Source: Scatophagus argus
Taxonomy: Eukaryota; Chordata; Actinopteri; Scatophagidae
NCBI RefSeq assembly: GCF_020382885.2
Contig: NC_058513.1
Location: 9,581,774-9,645,773 of the forward strand
Length of the DNA: 64,000 nt
Direction of reading: 5' to 3'
The position numbers and the translations under genes are program-made. Shown here in pieces: positions 3,080-62,765 of this stretch. Position 1 is the stretch's first letter. Every line of letters starts with the position of its first letter. The notes under the pieces are model-generated. The model saw only the letters and a program-made list of their open reading frames with translations. It ran no database searches and was not told where the DNA came from.

Positions 3080-3676
3080 TCAACTTTGTTCATCTGAAGA
3101 CTGAGCATTAGTCAACACGGACACATCCACAGTCAGTCTCTTGGCGGCAGCATAGCGCAGCTCATGCATAAGGAAGCAGCAAGCAGCAGACCTGAGGAGA
3201 CACTGTGTGGTCACAAGAAGATTCACAAGCACCAGCAGAGAAAAGAAAATCTGTGAGGAGGCCCAGTAAATGTTACTGTCATTATTGTATGGGTAGACAT
3301 TATACACTGTATATATTATACAAATGAAAATGAACAACAAACAGCCTATAATAGACACTGTATTTGGTGTGTATCTATGATGTAGTGTATATTTCCACAG
3401 ATGAGGATTGCACTGCAGGGTAAACACAAAGGATTGCTGTCCTTGAGGATGCAAAGACCAACTGACAATGAGAAACTGGTGGTTCAATAATCTGTATTGA
3501 TGTTGTCCATCACTACTCAAACAACAGTGTCCAAAGACTTGGTGGACAGAAATGAAAAACGCCACTTCAGAGGTGAAACTCGTAGTGATCTTCAGGTCTA
3601 TAATGTATTTTATTTTCAGCAGAAGGCGGTCGCATGGAGATTTAGAATTTGGTTTTGGTATGAGAACGTAAGACAC
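3080..3676 (-). CDS. Hypothetical 198-codon frame with two hydrophobic helices
   Basis: This is an uninterrupted frame on the minus strand. Two hydrophobic stretches can be seen, at about residues 107-128 (VSIIGCLLFIFICIIYTV) and about 142-165 (IFFSLLVLVNLLVTTQ), followed by a charged tail ending SSDEQS. I do not recognise the family. Another minus frame just upstream (3642-3860) starts with a leucine-rich, signal-like MGLEALLLLLTW, but I see no clear splice pair joining them. It may be the last exon of a small membrane protein, a pseudogene, or chance. Confidence 0.22.
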   Translation of the reverse strand: MSYVLIPKPNSKSPCDRLLLKIKYIIDLKITTSFTSEVAFFISVHQVFGHCCLSSDGQHQYRLLNHQFLIVSWSLHPQGQQSFVFTLQCNPHLWKYTLHHRYTPNTVSIIGCLLFIFICIIYTVYNVYPYNNDSNIYWASSQIFFSLLVLVNLLVTTQCLLRSAACCFLMHELRYAAAKRLTVDVSVLTNAQSSDEQS

Positions 3677-3860
3677 ACAAAAGAAGCACTGCAGAGCTGC
3701 TGCTCATAAACCCACAGACCACACAACAAATGTCAACATTGACTCTAATCACTTTGGAGGCAGAAACAATGCGCAGTAGTATGGAAGACTGTAAGCTACA
3801 GTTTATTGAATTATGAAGTAAGTGCCATGTTAGCAACAGCAGTAATGCCTCCAGTCCCAT

Positions 3861-14408: not shown

Positions 14409-14543
14409 AACGATCATCTTGCGGACTGCATAAACTTTAAAGAAGAAGACAGTGCTCCGATGATACTGGCTGCTGTTCATTTGTCACTCGTGCTGTGATC
14501 TTTGTTGGATGTTTGTATGTGAACGCATCACAGTAGTAAACAA

Positions 14544-16332
14544 ATGGCCTTCGCGCTGCCGGTGTGGCTCGCGGTCCAGGAAGAGCTCCTCGAATATGGC
14601 GCAACAGACTATGGAGCTCCGAGCTGTTTCGACGAATTCGACGACGAAGCTTTGTTCGAGATGTTTCACCTTACCAGACCCTGCCTCTCTTTCATCAGAG
14701 ACGCCGTGTGTATCCGCATAAAGAAAGTTACTGTTAAGAAACCTGCGTTATCTGTGGACGCGATGGTCATGGTGGCACTGAACTTTTACGCACAAGGAGT
14801 CTTCTCCGTTGCAGTCCTTCAGGGAGTCGGACTGAGCCAAATCGACTGCCCTGCGGTTATTAACACCGTGTCCGGGGTCATCGCAGGGATGGCCGATCAG
14901 TTTATCTCGTTCCCTCTAACCGGGGAGGCTAAAGCCAATGTCGCCTTGAAGGTAGAGAAATTATGTGGGATCCCCAACGTGCTGGGTGTCCTGGCTCCAG
15001 CTCACTTCAAGATCAGAGCTTCTCCGTATGAGAAGGACACTTTCAGGTCTTTTGTCAACACTCTGGGTTACACGTCTGTCGTGAGTCAGATCATGTGTGA
15101 CTCCGACGGTAACCTACTGAGTGTGGAAAAATGTTGTGTGGGCAGCACGTTTGAGCAGGACATGTGGGAGTCGTCTTTCAAAGGAAGGGAAATGGAGGAG
15201 GAATTGCACGGGCCATATTGCGTTATTGGTAGGATGTACATTCAGTATACAAACAAAACTGATTTTTTGGCACTGGATAAGAGAGAGATTTGATCATCAA
15301 AAAGTGGCGGTGCTTTGGATTTATAGACTTTACTCAAAGCAATTTCCAAACATGCTCAATATGTGCCAAGATACTGTATGTTTCTGTGTAAAATCAGCCA
15401 ACTCACACGGATACACAACCTACTCCGTAACGCCCCAGTCACTAAACATATTAAGAATACATATTAAACACAGCTATTCTGAAGGTCTTATAAAGCTTTT
15501 TTTCTGTATCGTTCAACAAACAGATGAGTTTGCTCAGTTTTAGAATCTCCATGGCAACTGAGCAGACTGCGGTTGCTGAGCAAGACCACAATATGTGGTT
15601 GAAATCTCTGGAAAAAGTTCACCTTGGATCAAAATATTCAAGAACAAACGTTCTAATTCAGTACTTACATCACACAAAACTGATACTTTGTTAATGCCAT
15701 TTTGTAACGTGTGATCTTTTTAACATTATTCAGTTAGGAAACACATTATTGCTTCATCATCTTCTATATAAAACACAGGTGTTGTCATCCTGGTTTCATT
15801 AGAGTGTCATGAATTCCTGGCAGACTGTACCCTACAAGGGCAGGTGAGGTCTTTAGTTATTGATGCTGTACTAATTGCATCCTCTCATGTCTTTCTTAAA
15901 GCTGGAAGAGGCTACCACTTGAGCAAACATGTCTTGACTCCTGTGTCAGAACCCACAAATGACAACGAGACCCGCTTCAATGAGGCCCACAAAAAGATCC
16001 ACAACGTGATGCGGACAACGCTCGGCTCCATGAAGAGGCGTTTCAGGTGTTTGATGCAACTTGGTTTTGCACAAGAAGGCTCTTTGGACAAAAAGTCCAA
16101 CATTATAAAGGCATGTTGTGTCCTGCACAACATCGCTATGAAGTTCTCTGTCCCTCCCCCGCCGGTAGTTGGTAAAATTGAGCACCTGCATCCGGGCAAG
16201 CTGCGTTCAGTGGCAGTGGAGCTCAACCCTGAGGCCCTAAAAGCCAGACAGGAACTCATGAACAGTATCTTCTCTGTTGTGTCCAGTAGCGAGGACCCAC
16301 CGAATAAAGGCATCAGAGAGGAGGAAGTGTGA
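14544..16332 (+). CDS. HARBI1-like protein, domesticated Harbinger transposase
   Basis: Two exons, 14544-15228 and 15902-16332, give 371 aa (human HARBI1 is 349 aa). The fold follows HARBI1: an N-terminal helical part, then SVDAMVMVALNFYAQGVFSV (compare the family's ALGFYTSG segment), ISFP, GIPNVLGVL and a C-terminal SKHVLTPVSEP, RFNEAHKKIHNV, RRFRCL and IIKACCVLHNIAM. The join is phase 1 and restores CVIAGRGYHLSKHVLTPV, which aligns without a gap to the family. Of the DDE catalytic residues, the first aspartate is replaced (LAPAH at about 150-154, where HARBI1 has VDCIH). The second may be kept (EQDMWE, D206), and the glutamate is replaced by arginine (NVMRTTLG, R266). A host gene is therefore likely, without nuclease activity. 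The start ATG has a good context (ACAAATGG). An AATAAA at 16693 fits its 3' end. Confidence 0.85.
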
Positions 16333-16833: not shown

Positions 16834-28658
<11,825 letters not shown>

Positions 28659-39461: not shown

Positions 39462-42400
39462 ATGAGTGCTGGACGGGTGTTTGAGGGTGTGGGCTGCGTC
39501 ACTTGGTGGGGCTTCAGTCCTGCGCGCGACCTGCTGAGTATGGGTGAGAGCCTCACGCGCACGAGGACTCGTGGTCCTGCACTACATGCAGTGCTAGAAA
39601 ATAACTCAGTACCTTTACTTATGTAGGCTGCTGTACTTTGGTATTTCCATTTTAAACTTATTGTGCTTTTCATTTGACAACAATAGTATCATTTCTCATT
39701 AATTAATAATCTGTATAAAGTAACTATGACCTTAACTGTAACTTCTTGCTGAAAACAATAACACTATCGGTCCCTAATAATATCCTGTTGGCATCTGCTA
39801 TGGGGTTATTGCATTAAAAAGTAAAGTGTTTTTATTATTATCTGCATCTTATTTAAATGGATGGATATCATTTGAAATGTTTTAGATACAAACACTGACA
39901 CAATACCTTAATTTATTTTTTAACCTATCTTTTGGACCTGTAAGCATTTTGTCCAAGAAAAGGACCATGCTTTAAATATTTGATTAGAAGACATAACTAC
40001 AGATGTGACAAGGCATTTACTGGCAACTTTTGATACTCATATTTGCTACAGACACCTTTCAGTTCCTACTGATGTTGGTTAGGTTGGTACTGAGGCTCAA
40101 TACCCAGCCCTGTAAGTGTGGGTGTTGAAACTAGTGTATGCTGTCTCTCTCTGTGCCTAGGTCCTGTGAGGCATGAAGGGGAGAGCCACGTTTTGCTGGT
40201 TGGCAGTAGTGATCCACGACATATTTTGAAGACAATTGCTGGTTTGCAGCACATAGAAAACCTGCATGTGAGTGTCCCCTAAACTGTCATGTAATTCCTG
40301 AGAACAGATCGGTATGCATTTCTGCACTTCTCTCTGCTGCTCTGCTGCAGGTGTGGGTGATAGAAAACAGCATGGAGGTGGTGGCTAGACAGCTGTTGCT
40401 CCTCTACCTGGCACTGATGCCCCAAGAAAGCATTGGAAATAATGGTACATGGGATTTTGTGAAATTATCAACATTATAAATGTTCAGTAAAAAAAAAAAT
40501 ATATTAATGAAGCTAAACATTTGAATTATTTTGCCATGGTTTTCATTTTCAGAGAAGGCAGAGGTTTTCCTGGAGGTGTTCGGGAACAGTGAGATCCGCA
40601 GTCAGACAGATGAGACACTGAGACATGCAGCATCTCAGCTCTCTCTGTCTGTTACTGACACACTGGAGACACCCACACATGCCTGTCTGAACACAACTCT
40701 TCTCAAGGTACAATCATCTTGTGAAACAAGCCTATCGCCTGTCTTTCTTTAAGATTGTATTGTTGTTCGTTTCCTGAAATCAGCTATTGAAGCCTGATCA
40801 GTTAAACCCATGTTGCTCCATGAATCATTGGAAGTTGACTAATTTCAAACATTTCTATTTCTACAGTTCAAGGAGCGAGACGAGCTGGTCAGGATATTCA
40901 AGTCATGGATCCAACCTCAGTCTTCATCATCTATCTTAATGTCCAAAGCTTGGGATTATCGAGTCAGACAGCACCTTGGAACACGCTATGACTCCAAGAG
41001 GGGATGTTTCGACTGGGACCTTAAAATGAAACTGCATGAGAAAGGGGTATTTGAATATATTTTGTGCTTTCCCTTGTTCGCCCAATTTTTTAGATGGACA
41101 GAAATCTGGAGGCTCATACTGTATGTTGGAGCATGGTCACAATTTCTATACTCACTTACTATCTGCAGTGTGGTTCCATCAACAAACAACAATATGTACG
41201 ATGGAGGGAGCAGGGTTTGGCGTTTGAAATGAGGGAAGGTGCCTACCAAATAACCAATCCAACTTTGCTGTCTTCCAGAGTGTTTAGTCAGGTAAGTGTT
41301 TTTTGGTTTTTTTTTTCTACACAATGTAGCAATAAGATGATATGAAGGAACTTATCTTTGTGTGTTTCTGGATAGACAGGGGATAAAGTGGCTGTCAGGG
41401 GCTACTGGGGAGACATCATTTCCAGTCCTTACCTCGCCTTTGGCATTGAAACTGATGACAAGAGCCTGCTGAAGACACAGAATGGGCAACACATCAAGGT
41501 AAAACATACAAGCATGTTGTCATTAGTAGCAGTAAGTAGTAGCTGCAAGTTACACATATGATGAAGAATAAATTAGTGTCTGTTTTTTGTCTTCCCTTTC
41601 TGTCCTTACAGACAGCCCAGGATATTTCCTTTGCAAATGTACAGGCATTGTTCCAGTCCCTGTCCAGTAGACGGGGCTGCCCCACTACTTCTCAGCCAGA
41701 CGCAAAAACAGAGAAACCATCTCCACAGACTGACCGCAAATCTGTCACCATCAATGGTAAATGGCTAACAACGCTAATAGGCCTGTGGCTTCAGACGATC
41801 ACTTGATTGGTTGTTTCAGTGTGTTTTATGTATGTACATGTTTAAATACACTAAAGCAGAAACGAGAGCTGGGTCTTGAAGCTGTTCATGGTGTGGTGTA
41901 TCACTTCTCTGTTTTGGTATTTAGCAGACAGGAAACACACTGAATGTTATAAAATACTCTTCAGATTTGATGCATCTGAATGGAATCTGCGTGACCTTCC
42001 TGCCTATGGATTCACTTAACAAACTGCTCGAAAAAAAGAAATACTCCCACTTATTCAGTGCCATCTACTTCTCTGCCAGGTGAGAGCTTTTTATTTCCTC
42101 TAATTACTCTTAATTAATTAATCTAAATCTCTAATTAATCTGTATCTATATATTTAACCTTAAAATAGGGGGGTCCTTTCACTATCCAGTCATCTCAACA
42201 CTAGACTTCTGATATGACTGCTGACCATGTTTCATTTCTCTGTTTTTGTTTCTCTCTCTGTCAATGCTGTAAAGTTGTGTGCACCAGTTGGGCCCGATGA
42301 TGAGACAGATTGCAGCACCAGACGCTGTGCTCATCGTGGAGTTGGCCAAGTGAGGGTTTTTATAGTAACATGCCTTGTTACCATGGTGACAGTACAGTCA

Positions 42401-49590: not shown

Positions 49591-52009
49591 ATGATCCATC
49601 TGGTGTTTTTGCTGCTAGCTTCAGGTAAGTGTCTTTGCATTAAATGAAATGATCGTGCAAAATTAAAATACATTTTGTTGCAATTGCAAGGCCTGCTGTA
49701 ATTGGTGTTTTGATGGGTGTCCCTCTGCAGGCTGTTTCACTTTGTGTTTACACATTCAGCGAGAGTATCACCTGATCAACAAGGCTGAGACATGGGAGAA
49801 GGCCCAGAGTTACTGCAGAAAGAGCTACACTGACCTCGCTACCATTGACAGCCACGATGACATGACGAGGCTGGTTAACATGACAGCAGCCAGTGGTGTG
49901 ACAGCAAATATCTGGATTGGTCTGAAAAAGAATGGGGCAGCATCTTGGTTGTGGTCTGTGGGGGCAACTCAGACCAGTCACGGAATAGCTGAATATACTA
50001 ACTGGGCCACTTTACCTGATTCTACTCACAACTGTGGAGGCATGAAGAGTGATGGGAAATGGCTCAGTGCATTATGTGGAACAAACCTTCCTTTTGTCTG
50101 TCAGGACGGTAAGCAAGATGACCTTTATTTGATCAGTATTTCAGATAGGATGATAGCCTAATTCACCATCTTGACAAGGGTGCACCAGCTTTGCAGAAAG
50201 ATTGGAAAAATTCACCCCAGATAGTTCCAAAGAAAAGCTCAGAAAAGTTGCCTTGCGCTGCTCTATAAGGTGGTGGAGGTGGAAGACCCATAATTTACAA
50301 AATGCACATCATGATGTGAAGATTTGAAGCTATAGTGATTGAGACCATAAACTCATTATGCAACAGCTTACTGAAGTGATAAATCAAGTGAGAAGTAGGC
50401 TCATTTCCTCATAAATTTACACACAATCTGACTTCTTTTCAAAAACTAATTGAGTCGCCCCCTGCTGGTCATTAGAAAGAATACAGGTTTAAGTCACATC
50501 TGTATTGGTTTCACTTATCACACCTGGAAGCAGGAGCTTACACTTTGTGTACTCTTAAAAGTAAGAAGATGCAAAGATGAGATTTATCCTTCATCAAAAG
50601 TCTTTTCAAACTGTACTGGTTGGTTTTATGAGAGAAAGTAGTGTAAGAATTTAGACTAAGTAGTTGTTTTGGCAAATGTTTATCTGGTTGATTGCTTCTC
50701 TTTGTCAAAGAGCAGCGCACAGTTGCATCCCTGAGCGTTTCTGTGGAACCTTACAGGACAGTCCAAAACAGTGCTAGCTGTAGCCTTATATTATATATTT
50801 TCCAGAATGTCAAAGTGTTCTTTTCTATGCATGCAGGGATATGTGTTTGATTCATTTAGGTGGAGTTTTACTTTAAGGTATCTTCAGAGTTATCTCAGAT
50901 TGGGCTGGAGACATTTAATATACCTGGCAGGAAAAGTTCTGATGAAAGATGATATCAAGTTGCATTATGGGAACTGTAGGAACTGCATCAGTTTTGGAGC
51001 TTGATCCATACTAGAGACTAAGTGCTCTTCGATTTAGATCAACCTTTTTGAAATGTGAGCCTTCTACATCACCCATCATTATTAAAGTGTGATTTAAATC
51101 GCTGGAGAAACTCTGAAGTGCACCTTTAAGTGCATGCAGCAGCTTGAAAACACAAACACCCTCCAAACATTTTAATCTGACAGTACATTTTGCAATATTC
51201 ACAGAGGATGGCTCCATGTATACGGTTTCTGAAAACAAACCTTGGAGGCAAGCCCAAGAGTACTGTCAACTGTATAACAGAGACTTGGTCAGTGTGAGGA
51301 GCCAGACTGAAAATCAAGCCTTACAGCAGATACTTAATGCGAGCGGGCCATCGTCATCCTCTTTCTGGATTGGTTTGTTCAGAGATGACTGGAAATGGTC
51401 GGACCAGAGTGACAGCTCTTTCAGATACTGGGAGAGCTCTCAGCCAAATAATGATGGAGCATGTGCATTGTACAACCCCTCTATCAAGAGATGGTACGAC
51501 AGAGGTTGTGCTAACCCATATCCCTTCTACTGCTATAGTGGTGAGCAGCATGTACTGTATAGCAAATGTCACCATAAACATGATTTATTTGACAAAAGAA
51601 ACTGAATGTATACTTGATGTAACATATTATGTTTTGTCTGACCACAGTAAAAGTCACGAGGCTGATTGTGAGGATGGAAATTAAGTCCAGTTCATTCTTT
51701 GACGTCAGTGACTCCACTTTGAGCGAAGCCATTTTGAGCAAGGTAAGTTTTTGTCTCCTCTAAAATTTTGGTGCTACTGCTTGTTTTCAAACACTGATAC
51801 CAGTGATACTGATACCAGTTTAGACGGGGCACTGTGGTAGTGACATAATAATCAAGGCATGGTTTGTCAATGCTATTTCTGTCTTGTGTCCATAGATCCT
51901 AAAAAACTTTGAGTGGGTCAAGCTGCACTGGAGAGTCCAGCCAGGTGGGAAGGTGTTCAGCGAAAAACAGAAAAAGAAGATCAGTGAAGTCTGTGTGAAA
52001 GTGACATAG
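49591..52009 (+). CDS. Secreted protein with two C-type lectin domains
   Basis: Five exons, 49591-49624, 49731-50108, 51205-51540, 51648-51742 and 51896-52009, give 318 aa. A short signal peptide (MIHLVFLLLASGCFTLC) is followed by lectin domain 1 (about 20-137: YHLINKAETWEKAQSYCR, IWIGL, CGTNLPFVC) and domain 2 (about 140-249: WRQAQEYC, FWIGLFRDDWKWSD, CANPYPFYC). A tail follows (about 250-318) with LSKILKNFEWVKLHWRVQP and FSEKQKKK. Neither domain has a full calcium/sugar set: domain 1 lacks EPN/QPD and WND, while domain 2 has QPN and WYD. The layout of two lectin domains plus this helical tail resembles fish macrophage-mannose-receptor-like and CLEC20A-like lectins. There is no membrane helix, so it is probably soluble. 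AATAAA follows at 52283-52288. Confidence 0.85.
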
Positions 52010-53882: not shown

Positions 53883-56800
53883 CTACAGGTCTTTCTTGAC
53901 CTCTGGCCGAGTCTCTTCTGTCTTGCTGGGCTCTTTTTGGTTGGGACTCAGCAGCTGTAGCAGGTCATGCAGGGCTTTTCTGAGCTGAGCACCAAACTTA
54001 CGGGCATCCTGGAAGGGAAACACAAGAAATACTGAGCAAAAAAAAAAAGGAGGTTGTACTGAATGTCACCTTTTTAACACTCAAAGCTTATGTTCGTGTT
54101 CTTGAGTGAAGCTTCAAACGTCTGTTGTCATATTTCACCATCAACATCTTCACCCTAAAAAAAAACAACCCTCCATCCAAATAAAGTGATTTATCAGCTT
54201 AAATGGAGCACCAAGAAAATACGACCTTAAGAATTTACTATAATAGTGCTACAAGAATAGTGGTATCTCCTTCAAAGAAACATGTGTGTGCTTGTGCAGT
54301 GTGTGGTTAAGCTAGATTAGATTAATTTTTTTTAACTCTCAAACACTCACATCAGTATTTGCCTCAAGAATCCAGCATCAGTCTGGCTAAATGTTCAGTT
54401 TAAGTGATGCTACATTTTTCCTACAACACAACTCTAAAAAGGACTGAAACAATAAATAGACTTTTAAGGACAAAAAAGTAATGGACAGCATAAAAAGAAA
54501 AAGTCAGTCCAGATACAGTAATTCCTGCCCAGAGTTGAGGAGTTTATTTTCTGCCCTTTTCCTATGCAGCATCAAATTATTTCATTAAAACTCACGGTGT
54601 CTGGACATGAGTGCTTGCACGAGATGTGGAAGTTAATCACGTTCTCTCCCAAAATGCTGTAGGACACCCCATAACCGTCATCAGACACCTGGAAGAGATA
54701 CACAAAATATTTATACTCATGGCTGCTCAGTGACTATGAGAACAAAAAGCCACTTTCAAAGAAAAAGAACCTGTGTTGTAAAGGCAAGAAATACTTCAAA
54801 ACAAACAACAAAACTATTAGTTTATGTACTTCTGCAGTGTCAAAACTACAAACTAGAATTTTAAGAAATTTCCTCAAAGCTTTCCTAGGATATCACATTC
54901 GCATGAATAACAGACAGATGGGCAGACAAAGAGTGAAACTAACAGAGTGAATGAGGACCCACTACAGTAAAAGCTACTGTATGGCATAAAATGCAAATGT
55001 AGTTACATTTAAAAAAAAAAAAAAAGTAGAGTTACATCATATAATGGCAAAATAAGGGTGTTTATTTCAGGTTTCCAGCTTATCCATAACATGAACAGCT
55101 TAATGAGAGGCTGACTGAAACACTGACCGGTCCAAAGCCCCCTCCACAGGAGAGATACTCTGGGTGGTTGACTACGTCAAACAGCTCCGGCAGCTGGAAT
55201 GGAGTCTGACTTGTGGACAGCCGCCAGGGCTCAGACAGCACCTGAAACACCCACAAGAGGCCATTGTATCAGTTCGCTGATGTTGCTGCTGTAGAGACTA
55301 AACTGCACAGTATGATAAATAAAGTGAAAAAAGAAGGATTTAAACCTCTTTCAAGAAAGGAGACTCCACTCCGAGGTATTTGGATACCACGTAGAGGCAA
55401 AAGAGGTGTCTGTCGATTCCAGCACCGGTCATAGCCATGCGGTATAGTTGTTGGTGCTTTTCTGTTGCTGTGCGGAACAAACGCCTGCACACATCTGCTG
55501 CCTGTTGGAGAATTGCATGAGCGGCATGACTGCTTGATGTAGCACACATTAAAAATAGCCACTAGATGATTTATGCAAGGAAAATAACAATTAGACATAA
55601 TCATTTGCAATGCAAATTCAATTTGATCAGAGCACTCTCAATCATCCTCTTCTGAGTTACTATTTATATACTTCACCAAAAAATGACCTCAAGCGCTGCG
55701 CAGAAATGATGAAAATCAAGAGACGGTTCCAGCAATCTCACCTCTCCACCCTCCAGCGCTCGGATGAAGGCACAGCTCTCATTGGTGCAGGAGCGAACGG
55801 TCTCGGTCCTGCCCTCCCTGAACAGACGGGTCATCGAGGCTTCGTATGTAAGACAGAACGTCCTTCGGTTCTGGAACACAGAGACAAAACTCACATGCAA
55901 CAGATAATATTGACAGTCACAAGTTCAGTGTACAAACATCCAATGTAGTGCAGAGTGTACAGCCAAACCAACAGATGGACTGCCTTTGTGTTGATCATGT
56001 TGGTGTATCCATGTATATAAAGTATAACCACATACGGTGTGTTCTACTTCAGGGGGAGGCTTACCCTGTAGTAGGTCAACTGAAGAGCCATCTGAATGAA
56101 GGCATCTGGACTGACTCGACACTTCTTGATCTTTAGTTTGCCAAAGTCTTGGAAGGCAAACACGTGGAGCTCCACATCGTCAGCCAGGGCCTGGGCAACT
56201 GCCAGAGACTGGGAAATCTGCTCCTCACACTGAAACAACACATCCAAACGTCAGTCGGACTGAGATACCTATAACCACTGCACTGTGGTTTCAAAAGAAT
56301 AAGTTTTTACATGTTTCAACTGAATTGACTCTTGTCTCTTGAATCTAGGAAGTGATTTTAAAAATGAACACAGTGGTTAAAATAATCCAAATACAATGTA
56401 TTGGTAGTGTGCTCAGAACTTAAATGAATAATCTAATACAGATTATCAGGTGCTGGAAAGTGTATCTTTTAGACCTTTGAACGGAGCCAAGCCACTTGTT
56501 TCCTCCTGCTTCCAGTCTTTATGCTAAGCTAGGCTAACTGCTGATCTTCTCATTTAATTCTCACACCAACACCAAGAAACATATTTAAAAAAAATGTTGA
56601 ACCACTTGTGATCTTATAGTTTCAGTATGAGCATAATGTGACTTATGATAGCTAAAGGAAAGCTAAAGAAAATGTGTGAATGAATAACTAACTTCTGGCG
56701 GAATTTCCCAGTTCAGCTTCTGTGGTCGTGGTAATGATGAATCCACTTCTCCTTTGCAGTGACCCTCTGCATTGTAACCGAGCTGGAAACAGTCGGTGGC

Positions 56801-59800
56801 CAACATGTACTACAAACATATAATAATTATGTGTTATCCGAAGTGGTGGCCCCATTACAAGACAAGTTAACAACAACAGTATGTACCCTACTTTTCTTTC
56901 ATACTCCTTACCTCCCATAAGTGTGATACAACTGGCCCATCAGCCCACGAGTGCTCTGCATTTATGCCATTCTTGCCATTCTTGTAGTAAACAACAGAGA
57001 AGGACTTGTCAAACCACCTGCATGACAACGAGACAATGACTGAAGGCTGTATGGAAATTACAACAATTCAGCAACAAAACATTTTCATACTACACTTATT
57101 ATACTCTTGCTCACATGACAGTGATCAGTTTTGTGTAAAAATTACCTGTCGTAACATTTCCCATGCAGCAAGGATTTGGCGTAGCGATCTAAACTACCTG
57201 CTGGGTCATCTCCCATCATGCCCTGTTCATCATCATCCAGGGTCACAAAGAAGGCAGCTTTTTCAATGCAGTCCAGAGAGCGTTTATTGACCCCACTGCT
57301 GAAATACTTCATCCTGGCTTTAGCCCAAGGGATTCTGGGAAACATTTCAGAGGGAAGCGATGAATGTGCTGTGTAGTCCACGCGATTTAAGCAATGGTGA
57401 CTTGTCAAACTGACCTGTCTCCAGCGGTCAGGGCTCCCAGTTTTGCCTCTCCTGTGGAAGGAGGTGAAGCGTCGTCAAGGATCCTCTGAATTTGGAATTC
57501 AATCTCCCTGGGGCACAGGAGTCTGCCTGCGTGGTACACCCTAAGACGAAAGTAGCGACCCCTGTGGTACACTGCTACATAGTCACTGTCCTGCCAATGC
57601 TGCACAGTATCTTCACACACAAAAGAAAGAGGAAAAAAGAGGGGAACGTATTATTATTTAGTCAAAAACCATGTCATGGACACACAAATATCAGAATGCT
57701 GTGCTTAAATTGTGGATTCCTGTCTGCCTTGTGCTGAAGTTGGTTCAAAACCTGTCTGCAGAGCGAACCAGCAACAGTATTACTGCCCTCTACAAACACT
57801 GATTAGATCTTCTTTACTGACACAAACAACTGAGCATCTTTTTCAAGGATAAAATGTTACATGGATTGACATGAAAGAAATGTTGTGTCACTCTACTCTC
57901 CAAGGGATAGTTTAAGGTTCACCTAACCTACCGTGTGCTTCCAAGATGACTTAAAGCCTACTTTACAAATGAAGGAAAGAAGACATACTACAGGAGGCAT
58001 AACTGAGTAAAGATGAATTTGTGTTTATTTTCATTGTGACTAATTTGAAATTGCTGCCCGAGTGACTATTAAGATTTTGACGCATTTACTGTATATGTGA
58101 CAGGGATGTATCTTCATTTCTAATTATACATAGTAAAACATGTCAGGCACATTTCAGTTGTTATTATACTGGCTTGACACTTAGAAATCTAAAAACTAGG
58201 TTTGGGCCAATTGTGTAAAAATATAAATACTACCTGTTAGTGTTCCAGGGATTCGACAAGTGTCAAACATCCGCTCAAATTGATAGGAACAGCAAGGAAC
58301 TGCAGACCTCAACAACCACTGAGCGGGATAAAAAGAATTGGCCAGTACAAGAAAAGGAAGAGGGAGAGAGAAAGAGAGGAAACAAAATGGATGATAAGTA
58401 CAGGAGAGTGTTGGGTTGAAATAAAAAGAGAACCAGGTAAAGAGAAAGAAGAAAAGATGAGAAAACCAAGTGTGTGGGCAGGAGAAAGCCTTTCCAGAAA
58501 ACCTAGACACACCTGAGGTGAGATCAGAAGGCCACAGGACACAGATGGGAGATGACAAAATGGGCTGTATAGCAGACATATTATGACTCAGTGAATCACG
58601 CTTTGCTTGAGACCATATACATGCATACACACACACAGACAATTTTCCATCCCACACTTTAACCTCAGAGAGTTCAGAAATCTGCCTCATCATCTCTGAG
58701 GCAGTGGTGTGTTAGCAATGCTCATTATGTAGTCAGAAATAGGTGCCGGCTTTCTCGATGAAGCTAACTGCTCATGTTCAGACAGCATCATGTATCACAT
58801 ATCAGCACTGTGTGAAACGCCACAGTGAGTGTCTATGTGTGTGTACATGTTTGTCTCTTTACCAGTCTCCTCTCCAGGAGTGCGTGTGGTGTTGAAAATC
58901 CTCTCACACTGAGCTGCACACAGAGGAATGACAGTGCCGGGTATACGACTCTGGGGAAACGGAGAGGAGAAGCCGTAGGAGAAGAACAGAGGACAGCAGA
59001 GTAGGAAGCGGAGAGTCAAGCAAAAAGAGGAAGAACGAGGAAGGTAAATAAAGAGAAATCAAGGAGAGGTTGAAAAGAGTACAAAAACAAAGGGGTGAGA
59101 GATGAGCATGGTATGACATGAGGGGAATGTCGGCACATAAACATGAAAACTAAAAAATGAATGGAGCTGCGCATGCTGTCTATGATAAATGATCAAGCCA
59201 CGCAAACGCTGATGGGTGAATGTCATTCACACAGTCAGAACACACCCAAGACACGGATGGTCTTGTACATTTGTATTGTAATTATTGACCAGAACATCAT
59301 ATTTTGAATGTTCCACAAAGAAATATCCCAACGTTTCAAAGAGACATTTGATTAACAAGTCTTCTGTTCCCATGGAAAAGAAACATGAATAATGAACAGC
59401 TCCCTGTATATGGAGCAGCTGGGGCTGACTGGTGGTTAAACTCACAGGTTTAATTTCTTCTTTGTTGAGTTTGCGGCGATACAGGAAGAATGCGTAAATG
59501 TTGTTGCCTGCCCTGGCTGCTTGGATGGGTGTAGGTGTCACATACAAGAAGTCCTAGAGAGAAACAGAGACAGGAAGTCAGCAGAAGGGATAAGCATGAG
59601 CGATTATCGTCCAAATAAAAAAATCTGTATGGACGTCTGTGATTACAGAACCGAGATTCAATTCCTTCAGTTAGTAATGCTGTGGTTCCCTTGATCAAAA
59701 ACACAAAGGACTGTTTATGAAACACGTTTGAGGAAATTGATGTTTTAGAATCAATGATATTCACATTCTTGGTATTATATGGGTGGATTAATAAAAACAA

Positions 59801-62765
59801 GAGCGTCTTAGTTAAAGCACTTAAAACAAACCACACATCCATTATTTTCCAGTCCATATGACAAACAAATGCTCACAAATGATTCACAGAATGAATCCTC
59901 TAATATCTCTAAAGCCATTAAACAGAGTAAATGAAACAGGAAAAGTCAGTATGTCAAGCAGTACCCTGACACCAATCCAAAAAGAGGACTACACCATATT
60001 GGACTGGAATTTCTAACACCAAAGAGATAAAAAAAAAAATGTATACCATGCCATAATAGTTACTGTTGACCATTATGGGGCTTCGTCCACGTAGATAAAC
60101 ATATTCCTCCCACCAGTCAGTAACCTGAGGAATTAAAACACAAAGATATCTTGTGAGAAAGGTAATATTGCAGCCAACTGGCAGTCACATCACTTGCATA
60201 TTCAGACAGGATAAATAATTCAAACCACAGAACCTCACAAAGGAATAAATTGTTAATGGGATTTTAAATGTCCTTTGGACAGCTTTGCTTTGGACATTTA
60301 AGAGACGTGTTATGTTGCCAAACGTAGCCTGAGCATTGTGGTTGACCACTTACATAGTTGGCAGCCCAGAGAGCTTTGAGTTTGAGGTACCACTGCAGGC
60401 GGTTACCGAGGCTGCTCTCAAACTCCGCTCCCAACTTGGTCATGCGTTCATACTGTGTATCATCCAACAGCGGACGCACTGATTCCAATTAATAAAAAAA
60501 AAAAAAAAAAAAAAAAAGAGATGTGCAAAAAGAAATTCAGTTAGAAACAAAATGGCCAACAGGATTAGAAAATATTTATATAAAGGACACCTACAGTGAT
60601 GTGGAGTTTTCTACCATGACAACAAAACACAGTTGTTGTAATACCAAATCTCCTTTCAATTACATCTTCTCTCATCTGTCACATATACATAAATTTATAT
60701 GTTGTGCATTTTTCAACATTTCTCAACTAGCTGACACAGCCAGATAAACAAAAAAATCCAAACAATAACAAAGGAAATTTGGTGCAACCAAGGCAGAAAA
60801 TGATTAATGTGAGAAAGTGATCCATCTGTTTCATGGTTAGCGATCAGTGTGTTGTCATTTCCTCTTCTTCGTGTGACGTCTCACCCTCTTGACTGTTTCC
60901 TTGATGGCAGGCACAGGGAGGTTTGGCAACGAACCCTGGTAACTGTAGAGCAGAGGCTTTCTGCCAGAAAAGATCCGCACCAACGCCTGGCAAAGAAACA
61001 TTCAGAGAACAAACACACTCAAAATAATAAAGTGAGGACACACCTAGGGCTAATTTTTTATTTATGCTAATTCTTTTTAACAAGCAGATTTGCAGAATAT
61101 AATATTCCATGAAAACAAAATGCTTTAGAAATAAAGCAACAACAATCTTTTCTGAACAAGAGGATCATTCACTGTTGAAGCACAGTGAGCAGTTTTTTCT
61201 TACAGCAAAAACATTCTGTAGCATATGTGGACTCACTATGCTTCAGATTAGATTACACTGGGCTAACTCTATTTTTAACTATAGCATAAAAAAAGTAAAA
61301 AGTAGAAGATAACACTGACCACCCAGACTTTGGTGGTATTGGACATCTTGCCATGCTGCTCGAATATCCAGCGGTGGTAGGAGAGGAGCTGCTTGAGGCA
61401 CAGACGCATGGTAAAGATGAGCAAGAGCCAGAGCATGGTGCTGAAGAGCACTGCTGACACCAACGCCTGGCACTGGGTGCTCATAGACTGGCTGGGAATA
61501 GTGGGAGAAGATGGACAGATGGATAAGGGGGGGGGGAGAGGGAGGAAAAAGCAACAGTGAGTGAAACAGATGACTGAATAAAGATGAACAGGGCCAGGAG
61601 CAAAAGAACACACATAAGAATGGATAGGAAGAGAAGTATTTTTATCTTAATTAAAAAAGATTAATCATTAACTCAAACCATATCATGGCCACAAGATGTG
61701 TTACCTGACTGGCAGGTGCTCCTGTATCTTGGCTATGAGTCCCATGGACGGGTCGGAGCGAGTGTACATAGTAGCCAGGATTGCTATAACCACAAAAAGC
61801 CAGGAGGAGGGACTAGCAGGATATGCTCCTGTTATCACACTGTTCTGTTAATGTGAGAGAAGAGAAATTGATTTGGAATCCCATTCTTCCTGTTTATGAT
61901 CAGAACAGTGACATACCCACTGGTGATTCAGTTATGATCAGATTAATGCATGTCATATAAATGTTCAGTTCTGAGAATCTCAACTGCATTCAGCTCAGTG
62001 TCAGACATTAACCTGATTTCTACAACAGATTACCAGGAATTTAATTGTTATTTTAAGGCTTCTGTAGCAGGTGCATGTCTACCTTAACACACATCAAACA
62101 TCAGTTCAGTTTTTATTCACACAGTTTCTGAAAATGAATGAGCAGTGGAAGTGAGGATCAAACAAAGACATGAGGATACCCACAAACAATGAGTGTGTTA
62201 CAATGTGTGGGGTTCATTATTGATTCATGTAGTCCACACGTTCCAACAGCAAAAAACTCATTGAGAGCCAGGTCTCTTTTCAGGAATGCCCTGTGTACAG
62301 TGTTACACAAAACCAAATAACTAAAATACAACACTTTACACAGACTATAAAAGTATTATTTAAGTAGCAATGAAGAAACCTGCAAATTGAGATGAATGAG
62401 CAGAAAATCATGACATGCACAGCCCAATAGAACAGAATACTTGAAAAATTCTTCAATATTAAACACTGACATAGATGCAAGTGCCAACACGCAGAGTGGA
62501 ATGAAAGCAGTAATAAGAAGGAGGAAGAGGCACATTCCTGTGATTATTATAGACGGACACAGACACAGGCTAAGCACCAACAAACAAAAGAGACAACAGG
62601 CATAAAGAGTAGAGTTGGAGATACCTTGAGTCTGATGATACGCTTCTTCCACGAGCGCACACCAGAGAGGTAGATCTCAGTGAGGGCCTGGTGGGACAGC
62701 TGCACATCGATGCCCTCCAAAGTGACGGTGAACTGGAAGGCCACCGCTTGGTGGGCTTCTGCCAT
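53883..62765 (-). CDS. cpt1a: Carnitine O-palmitoyltransferase 1, liver-type-like
   Basis: Outer mitochondrial membrane enzyme that makes acylcarnitine, the gate of fatty-acid oxidation, inhibited by malonyl-CoA. Exons: 62625-62765, 61705-61844, 61320-61491, 60885-60986, 60354-60488, 60047-60124, 59446-59553, then one of 58863-58950 or 58234-58318, then 57415-57610, 57146-57334, 56912-57017, 56693-56809, 56065-56229, 55742-55870, 55346-55501, 55128-55241, 54596-54688 and 53883-54008. About 784 aa (human CPT1A 773). The start [15 protein letters not shown] is the conserved regulatory N terminus. Two membrane helices lie near residues 60-75 and 104-123. Catalytic His is in [24 protein letters not shown] and [13 protein letters not shown] are conserved. 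The fifth coding exon here (60354-60488) lacks a visible AG acceptor. Human CPT1C is also on chromosome 19q, so the exact orthology (1A or a pro-1C copy) is open. Confidence 0.92.
56475..56610 (+). repeat. Interspersed repeat fragment in a cpt1 intron
   Basis: GCCAAGCCACTTGTTTCCTC then CTTCCAGTCTTTATGCTAAG and CTAGGCTAACTGCTG match, from memory, the left part of a repeat widespread in percomorph genomes, with an internal deletion before GATCTTCTCATTTAA. It is related to the piece at 9735-9815. Confidence 0.45.
58234..58318 (-). other. cpt1a: cpt1 alternative exon B (CPT1B-like)
   Basis: 85 nt, entered in phase 0 and left in phase 1, encoding [18 protein letters not shown] then [10 protein letters not shown]. 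It has a good acceptor (CCCGCTCAG) and donor (ACAG then GTAGTA). CSYQxERMF is the form seen in muscle CPT1B. It is one codon shorter than exon A and occupies the same place in the protein. Confidence 0.8.
58863..58950 (-). other. cpt1a: cpt1 alternative exon A (CPT1A-like)
   Basis: 88 nt, phase 0 to phase 1, encoding [19 protein letters not shown] then [10 protein letters not shown]. The acceptor is TTTCCCCAG and the donor ACTG then GTAAAG. IPLCxAQxER and PGEETD are the forms seen in CPT1A. Using both A and B (173 nt) or neither would break the frame. Confidence 0.85.
60494..60517 (-). repeat. T-run at the cpt1 acceptor
   Basis: On the minus strand a 24-nt T homopolymer runs straight into ATTAA and then the TTG codon that starts the conserved ESVRPLL segment. 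No AG precedes that codon, so the normal acceptor is absent or was lost in assembly. Confidence 0.7.

Follow-up and report, generated by a model that had tools for sequence, protein, structure and literature searches.

The 64,000-nucleotide (nt) stretch of the Scatophagus argus genome analyzed here (the window; contig NC_058513.1, positions 9,581,774 to 9,645,773 of the forward strand) contains a cpt1 gene in which two adjacent homologous exons, A and B, code for the same segment of the protein. As judged from the sequence, they probably constitute a working mutually exclusive exon pair in a teleost cpt1 gene, which is itself probably of the CPT1C/Cpt1a2 type. The coding region was complete on the minus strand (53883..62765, with the ATG at 62765 and the stop codon ending at 53883) and consisted of 19 exons, A and B both counted. 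The encoded protein combines an acyltransferase domain over most of its length (residues 168–769 match carnitine acetyltransferase 1nm8, E=1.1e-72) with a CPT1 N-terminus (residues 1–42 align with 2le3, a peptide of the liver isoform of CPT1, at E=1.1e-14).

Exon A (58863..58950, minus strand, 88 nt) and exon B (58234..58318, minus strand, 85 nt) encode 29 and 28 residues, respectively, and are separated by an intron of 544 nt. Both are entered in phase 0 and left in phase 1, and they lie between two constitutive exons of the minus strand, an upstream one (59446..59553) left in phase 0 and a downstream one (57415..57610) entered in phase 1. The acceptors were CCAG in exon A and TCAG in exon B, and the donors were GTAAAG and GTAGTA, respectively. 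The coordinates of both exons in the initial annotation were thus exact to the base, and the good splice sites and equal phases it had described were confirmed. Its calculation that phase arithmetic admits one of the two exons per transcript was also correct: the reading frame stays open with exon A alone (784 aa) or exon B alone (783 aa), both lengths presupposing an exon-4 start at 60488, which has no AG acceptor; inclusion of both leads to a stop 14 codons past exon A and inclusion of neither to a stop 11 codons past the preceding exon. The gene therefore does carry, as had been proposed, two intact alternatives of one exon that are exclusive by frame.

The claimed homology of the two exons was borne out as well. 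Identical residues were found at 12 of 29 aligned positions (11/28 in the multi-sequence comparison), and the alignment scored 51, a value that none of 2000 shuffles approached (highest score 14). In a tblastn search of the 64-kb window with human CPT1A (working versions of the human CPT1A, CPT1B, and CPT1C sequences served in all comparisons and trees), exon A was found at E=1.9e-8, with a match extending into the intron, and exon B at 6e-6. A chance likeness of A and B is very unlikely in view of these shuffle scores and matches.

The assignment of exon A to the CPT1A type and of exon B to the CPT1B type held only in part. Exon A was indeed nearest to CPT1A (19 identities, score 102, vs. 14 identities, score 73, with CPT1B). 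Exon B has the CPT1B length, since we take human CPT1A to have 29 codons (88 nt) at this exon and CPT1B and CPT1C to have 28 (85 nt); in sequence, however, it was only slightly nearer to CPT1B (score 78, 16 identities) than to CPT1A (score 71, 17 identities). The motif CRIPG, which had been named a CPT1B signature, is not one: human CPT1B reads TRIPG there, and CRIPG is present in a carnitine acetyltransferase-like gene of the same genome. The A/B segment lies within the acyltransferase domain, makes up 28–29 of ~784 residues, and presumably corresponds to residues 294–322 of human CPT1A. The equivalents of C304, T314, and R316 are retained in both exons. These three residues are among those mutated in CPT1A deficiency, according to PMC10076611.

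The genome itself (570.7 Mb, 48 contigs) was searched for relatives, the results being drawn from the best-scoring candidates. It carries at least four cpt1 genes: the one in the window (contig C21), one on C16, and two on C7 (at 14.31M and 17.16M). The exon models of the three other genes follow the layout of the window gene, whose phases and open frames were imposed on them, and the last exon of the gene at 17.16M was not recovered in its model. The gene at 14.31M grouped with human CPT1B at 92 and is referred to as cpt1b-like; the gene at 17.16M was nearest to human CPT1A (74% identity) and is referred to as cpt1a-like. The initial annotation had advised searching for both exons in other cpt1 genes, and within the same genome this search revealed a second pair: the cpt1a-like gene contains exons of 88 nt (L037:7459-7546) and 85 nt (L037:8052-8136) in the same order and phases, spaced 505 nt apart vs. 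544 nt in the window, and in this gene as well the frame is preserved with either exon singly. Its A and B copies are less diverged (16 identities, score 90) than those of the window (11 identities, score 45). A single 88-nt copy was found in the C16 gene and a single 85-nt copy in the cpt1b-like gene.

At the DNA level, exon A had an 84% match on C16, and exon B had no relative elsewhere in the genome at E values up to 10. In the protein search with exon B, six matches were among those listed: the window exon itself, exons of cpt1 genes (four matches), and a site on C22. The last was rejected as a further cpt1 exon B, its gene (~88–92 kb; L045:405-527 and 3469-3702 on the minus strand) being carnitine acetyltransferase-like, with 1t7q as its best match (E=2.6e-21) and a matching segment that reads PLCMKQFEQMISSCRIPG. 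The whole-protein search also gave a match on C6 with 30% identity. No relatives beyond this genome were found in the viral or genome contig collections, as expected for a vertebrate gene.

If the pair works as proposed, each mature mRNA would take either A or B and so encode one of two versions of the 28–29-residue acyltransferase segment, both exons being predicted to be in use. The choice may be regulated through the long pyrimidine-rich tracts that precede both exons, probably with distant branch points and PTB-type repressors. The AG-free tracts before exon A (58953..59149, minus strand, 197 nt) and exon B (58321..58489, minus strand, 169 nt) are the longest and the second longest among 69 introns of the four cpt1 genes, a set that includes the intron before window exon 4, which ends without an AG acceptor, and excludes the unrecovered exon on C7. 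In the remaining 67 introns, the AG-free stretch does not exceed 130 nt (median 41). The same two introns also take the top two places for pyrimidine content and PTB-like tetramers; as the tract measure was picked after reading the sequence, the ranking is descriptive. In the window as a whole, AG-free runs of at least 150 nt occur three times on the minus strand and never on the plus strand, and two of the three are these tracts. Long AG-free zones are known from regulated exons with distant branch points, and paired homologous exons with such tracts resemble the mutually exclusive exons of the tropomyosin and alpha-actinin type. Steric exclusion is unlikely here because the AG-free zone before exon B begins ~370 nt from the donor of exon A. 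Inverted repeats, sought in the A–B intron as a pairing that could enforce exclusion, were two in number, consisted of simple TG/CA sequence only, and were judged uninformative. Transcripts with both or neither of the exons would be cleared by nonsense-mediated decay, and the swap may alter substrate affinity or the response to malonyl-CoA, effects that have been reported for CPT1 of insects.

Regarding the age of the pair, exon A of the window and its C16 counterpart are alike at 26 of 29 residues and, among third codon positions, at 20 of 29; for A and B of the window, the figure is 11 of 28 by either measure (Fisher p=0.034 for third positions). As the A–B divergence exceeds that between the two A copies, the pair is most likely older than the split of the C21 and C16 genes, with B subsequently lost from the C16 gene, unless B simply evolves fast. 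For the same reason, the simplest case of a recent origin, in which exon B arose as a local duplicate of A, was rejected. The pair perhaps also predates the split of cpt1a and cpt1c. Our tentative reading, to which we give a little under even chances, is that the vertebrate (perhaps bilaterian) CPT1 ancestor had an A/B pair that was later divided: mammalian CPT1A would have kept A, CPT1B and CPT1C would have kept B, and fish cpt1a and one cpt1c would have kept both. The length pattern suggests such sorting of an ancestral pair among duplicates, with the pair in two genes of this genome, an 88- or 85-nt copy alone in the others, and 88 nt in human CPT1A vs. 85 nt in CPT1B and CPT1C. The identical 88/85 order and lengths of the C21 and C7 pairs speak for a single event.

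A possible, if rather doubtful, alternative that is also compatible with a working pair is independent origin, in which the exon was duplicated separately in the window gene and in the cpt1a-like gene and the downstream copy each time lost one codon. It demands repeated one-codon losses and the 88–85 order arising twice. Trees of the exon DNA, built from 87 nt, leave room for it: the best of the eight tested corresponds to neither scheme, the three ancient-pair trees are 0.41–0.48 log units lower and the gene-wise tree 1.10, and the gene-wise scheme is not rejected by the approximately unbiased (AU) test (p-AU 0.194 for DNA and 0.193 for protein). The protein trees favor common origin, the tree constrained to A versus B being equal to the free tree (difference of 0.002 log units) and the gene-wise tree 4.8 log units worse. 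The donors point in the same direction, although this was noticed post hoc: GTAG is common to the B copies of both pairs, and GTAA to all three A copies as well as the lone copy in the cpt1b-like gene. Two points weigh against a single origin and for independent duplication. In raw protein score, the B copy of the cpt1a-like gene is closer to its own A neighbor (90) than to exon B of the window (74), and a one-event origin requires several subsequent exon losses, namely in the C16 gene, the cpt1b-like gene, human CPT1A, and human CPT1C. No clear decayed copy was found at the places searched: 278 of 300 shuffles scored as high as window exon B against the C16 intron, and 276/300 and 265/300 as high as the two A copies against the short intron of the cpt1b-like gene. 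The B copy of the cpt1a-like gene gave no more than a weak hint in the C16 intron (7/300 shuffles scoring as high).

Whether exon B is functional bears directly on the proposed working of the pair. Ten residues do not vary among the remaining eight sequences (five from this genome and three human; the list was drawn by eye from the alignment), and exon B retains nine of them, the C304, T314, and R316 positions included. Neutral drift was simulated from either of two related 85-nt exons, with 20000 runs per setting: 9/10 of these residues survived together with an open frame in no more than 0.1% of runs at 0.5 substitutions per site or above, and at 0.3 the share was 1.4–1.8%. Several observations nevertheless weigh against a working pair. 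The branch of exon B is long (0.90 in the DNA tree and 0.79 in the best-fitting protein trees); exon B and the cpt1b-like exon are alike at 15, 18, and 17 of 28 first, second, and third codon positions, and as third positions are no less alike than the others, the constraint on B looks weaker than that on the cpt1a-like B copy. In the C7 pair, the AG-free stretches are short, at 49 and 41 nt. Finally, exon 4 of the window gene (60354..60488, minus strand) is without an AG acceptor in this assembly: at 60488-60517 the minus strand shows 24 T, then ATTAA, then TTGGAATCAG, and the exon-4 models of the three paralogues have AG followed by codons for Tyr-Leu. Either the assembly contains an error next to the T run or the acceptor has been lost, so that the gene could be damaged or the assembly wrong.

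The fast branch of exon B and the missing exon-4 acceptor would both fit a gene that relies on exon A, with B a relic or scarcely used, or a gene that is itself decaying. We consider this unlikely: exon B keeps its open frame, both splice sites, and nearly all of the invariant residues, and the remaining internal exons, exon 4 excepted, all have an open frame, an AG acceptor, and a GT donor. It is likewise improbable that exon choice yields liver-like and muscle-like CPT1 from one locus, as had been put forward in the initial annotation. Exon A does score best with CPT1A and exon B, which has the CPT1B length, slightly best with CPT1B, but exon B is nearly as close to CPT1A, no more than the 28–29 residues change, the locus points to the CPT1C/Cpt1a2 type, and distinct cpt1a-like and cpt1b-like genes are present elsewhere in the genome. 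An off switch, in which inclusion of both or neither reduces CPT1 output through degraded mRNA, agrees with the early stops of both combinations but is very improbable as the whole explanation, since it leaves the second coding version in two genes unexplained, and it may act in addition.

The gene is probably of the CPT1C/Cpt1a2 type rather than CPT1A. Its neighborhood includes an exon with a DUF4471 domain (40843..41232, plus strand), which we take to be DNAAF3, as well as exons for synaptotagmin-like C2 domains and a tyrosine phosphatase gene containing fn3 repeats, which presumably fit SYT5 and PTPRH of human 19q13. Dnaaf3 is a neighbor of zebrafish Cpt1ca, and teleost Cpt1a2 was argued to be the orthologue of mammalian CPT1C, in Lopes-Marques et al. 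(2015, PMC4589379); the DNAAF3-type neighbor therefore makes the locus point to this type. Syt5 and Ptprh are absent from the text of PMC4589379. Two such genes are reported there for teleosts, and the C21 and C16 genes paired at 100 in our gene tree; human CPT1C joined the CPT1B branch at 52 on a long branch. By contrast with the present pair, the main text of that paper contains neither “exon” nor “splic”.

Several other features were found in the window. Two C-type lectin domains adjoin cpt1 (49667-50161 and 51117-51605, plus strand). On the minus strand, ~23250-27000 holds a series of seven open frames, each of 100 aa and much like the others, with starts 548–592 nt apart; the one tested contains an fn3 domain, and they are apparently amplified exons of a receptor phosphatase gene. 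Two open frames at 14523-16332 (plus strand) match DDE_Tnp_4 with 19.8 bits (below the Pfam cut-off) and 42.1 bits (above it), and we take them for a transposase, probably of the Harbinger type.

Alternative splicing of CPT1 is already known in insects: Price et al., in 2010, reportedly described it for CPT1 (Drosophila whd), with an alternative region of ~21 residues said to be essential for substrate and malonyl-CoA binding. The likeness lies in the alternative exons of CPT1, which may occupy the same position in the protein; the difference is that the present pair is a vertebrate one and occurs in two paralogues. For the fish Synechogobius hasta, the abstract of Wu et al. from 2016 is said to ascribe CPT I variants to alternative splicing. 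Fish CPT I cDNA variants are also named in print: PMC5713373 lists CPT I alpha1a-1a, -1b, -1c, and -2 cDNAs of this species (Wu et al. 2016), names that suggest variants of one gene, and these may already contain the cpt1a-type pair. Among the literature matches listed (titles and abstract starts), we failed to find a description of a mutually exclusive CPT1 exon pair from fish or any other vertebrate, a weak absence given the incomplete coverage, and passages of PMC3968065 hold nothing on CPT1 splicing. New here are the vertebrate pair, its occurrence in two paralogues, and exon lengths whose distribution suggests that CPT1A, CPT1B, and CPT1C divided an ancestral pair among them.

CPT1 sets the rate of fatty-acid entry into mitochondria, and human CPT1A deficiency mutations affect three positions of the swapped segment. 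Exchange of this segment by splicing in a vertebrate gene would be a natural single-segment experiment on its role in CPT1. If the pair is ancestral, insect CPT1 splicing, the fish paralogues, and the mammalian isozymes would be joined in one history, and part of the difference between the liver and muscle isozymes at this segment would be an old splicing choice fixed as separate genes.
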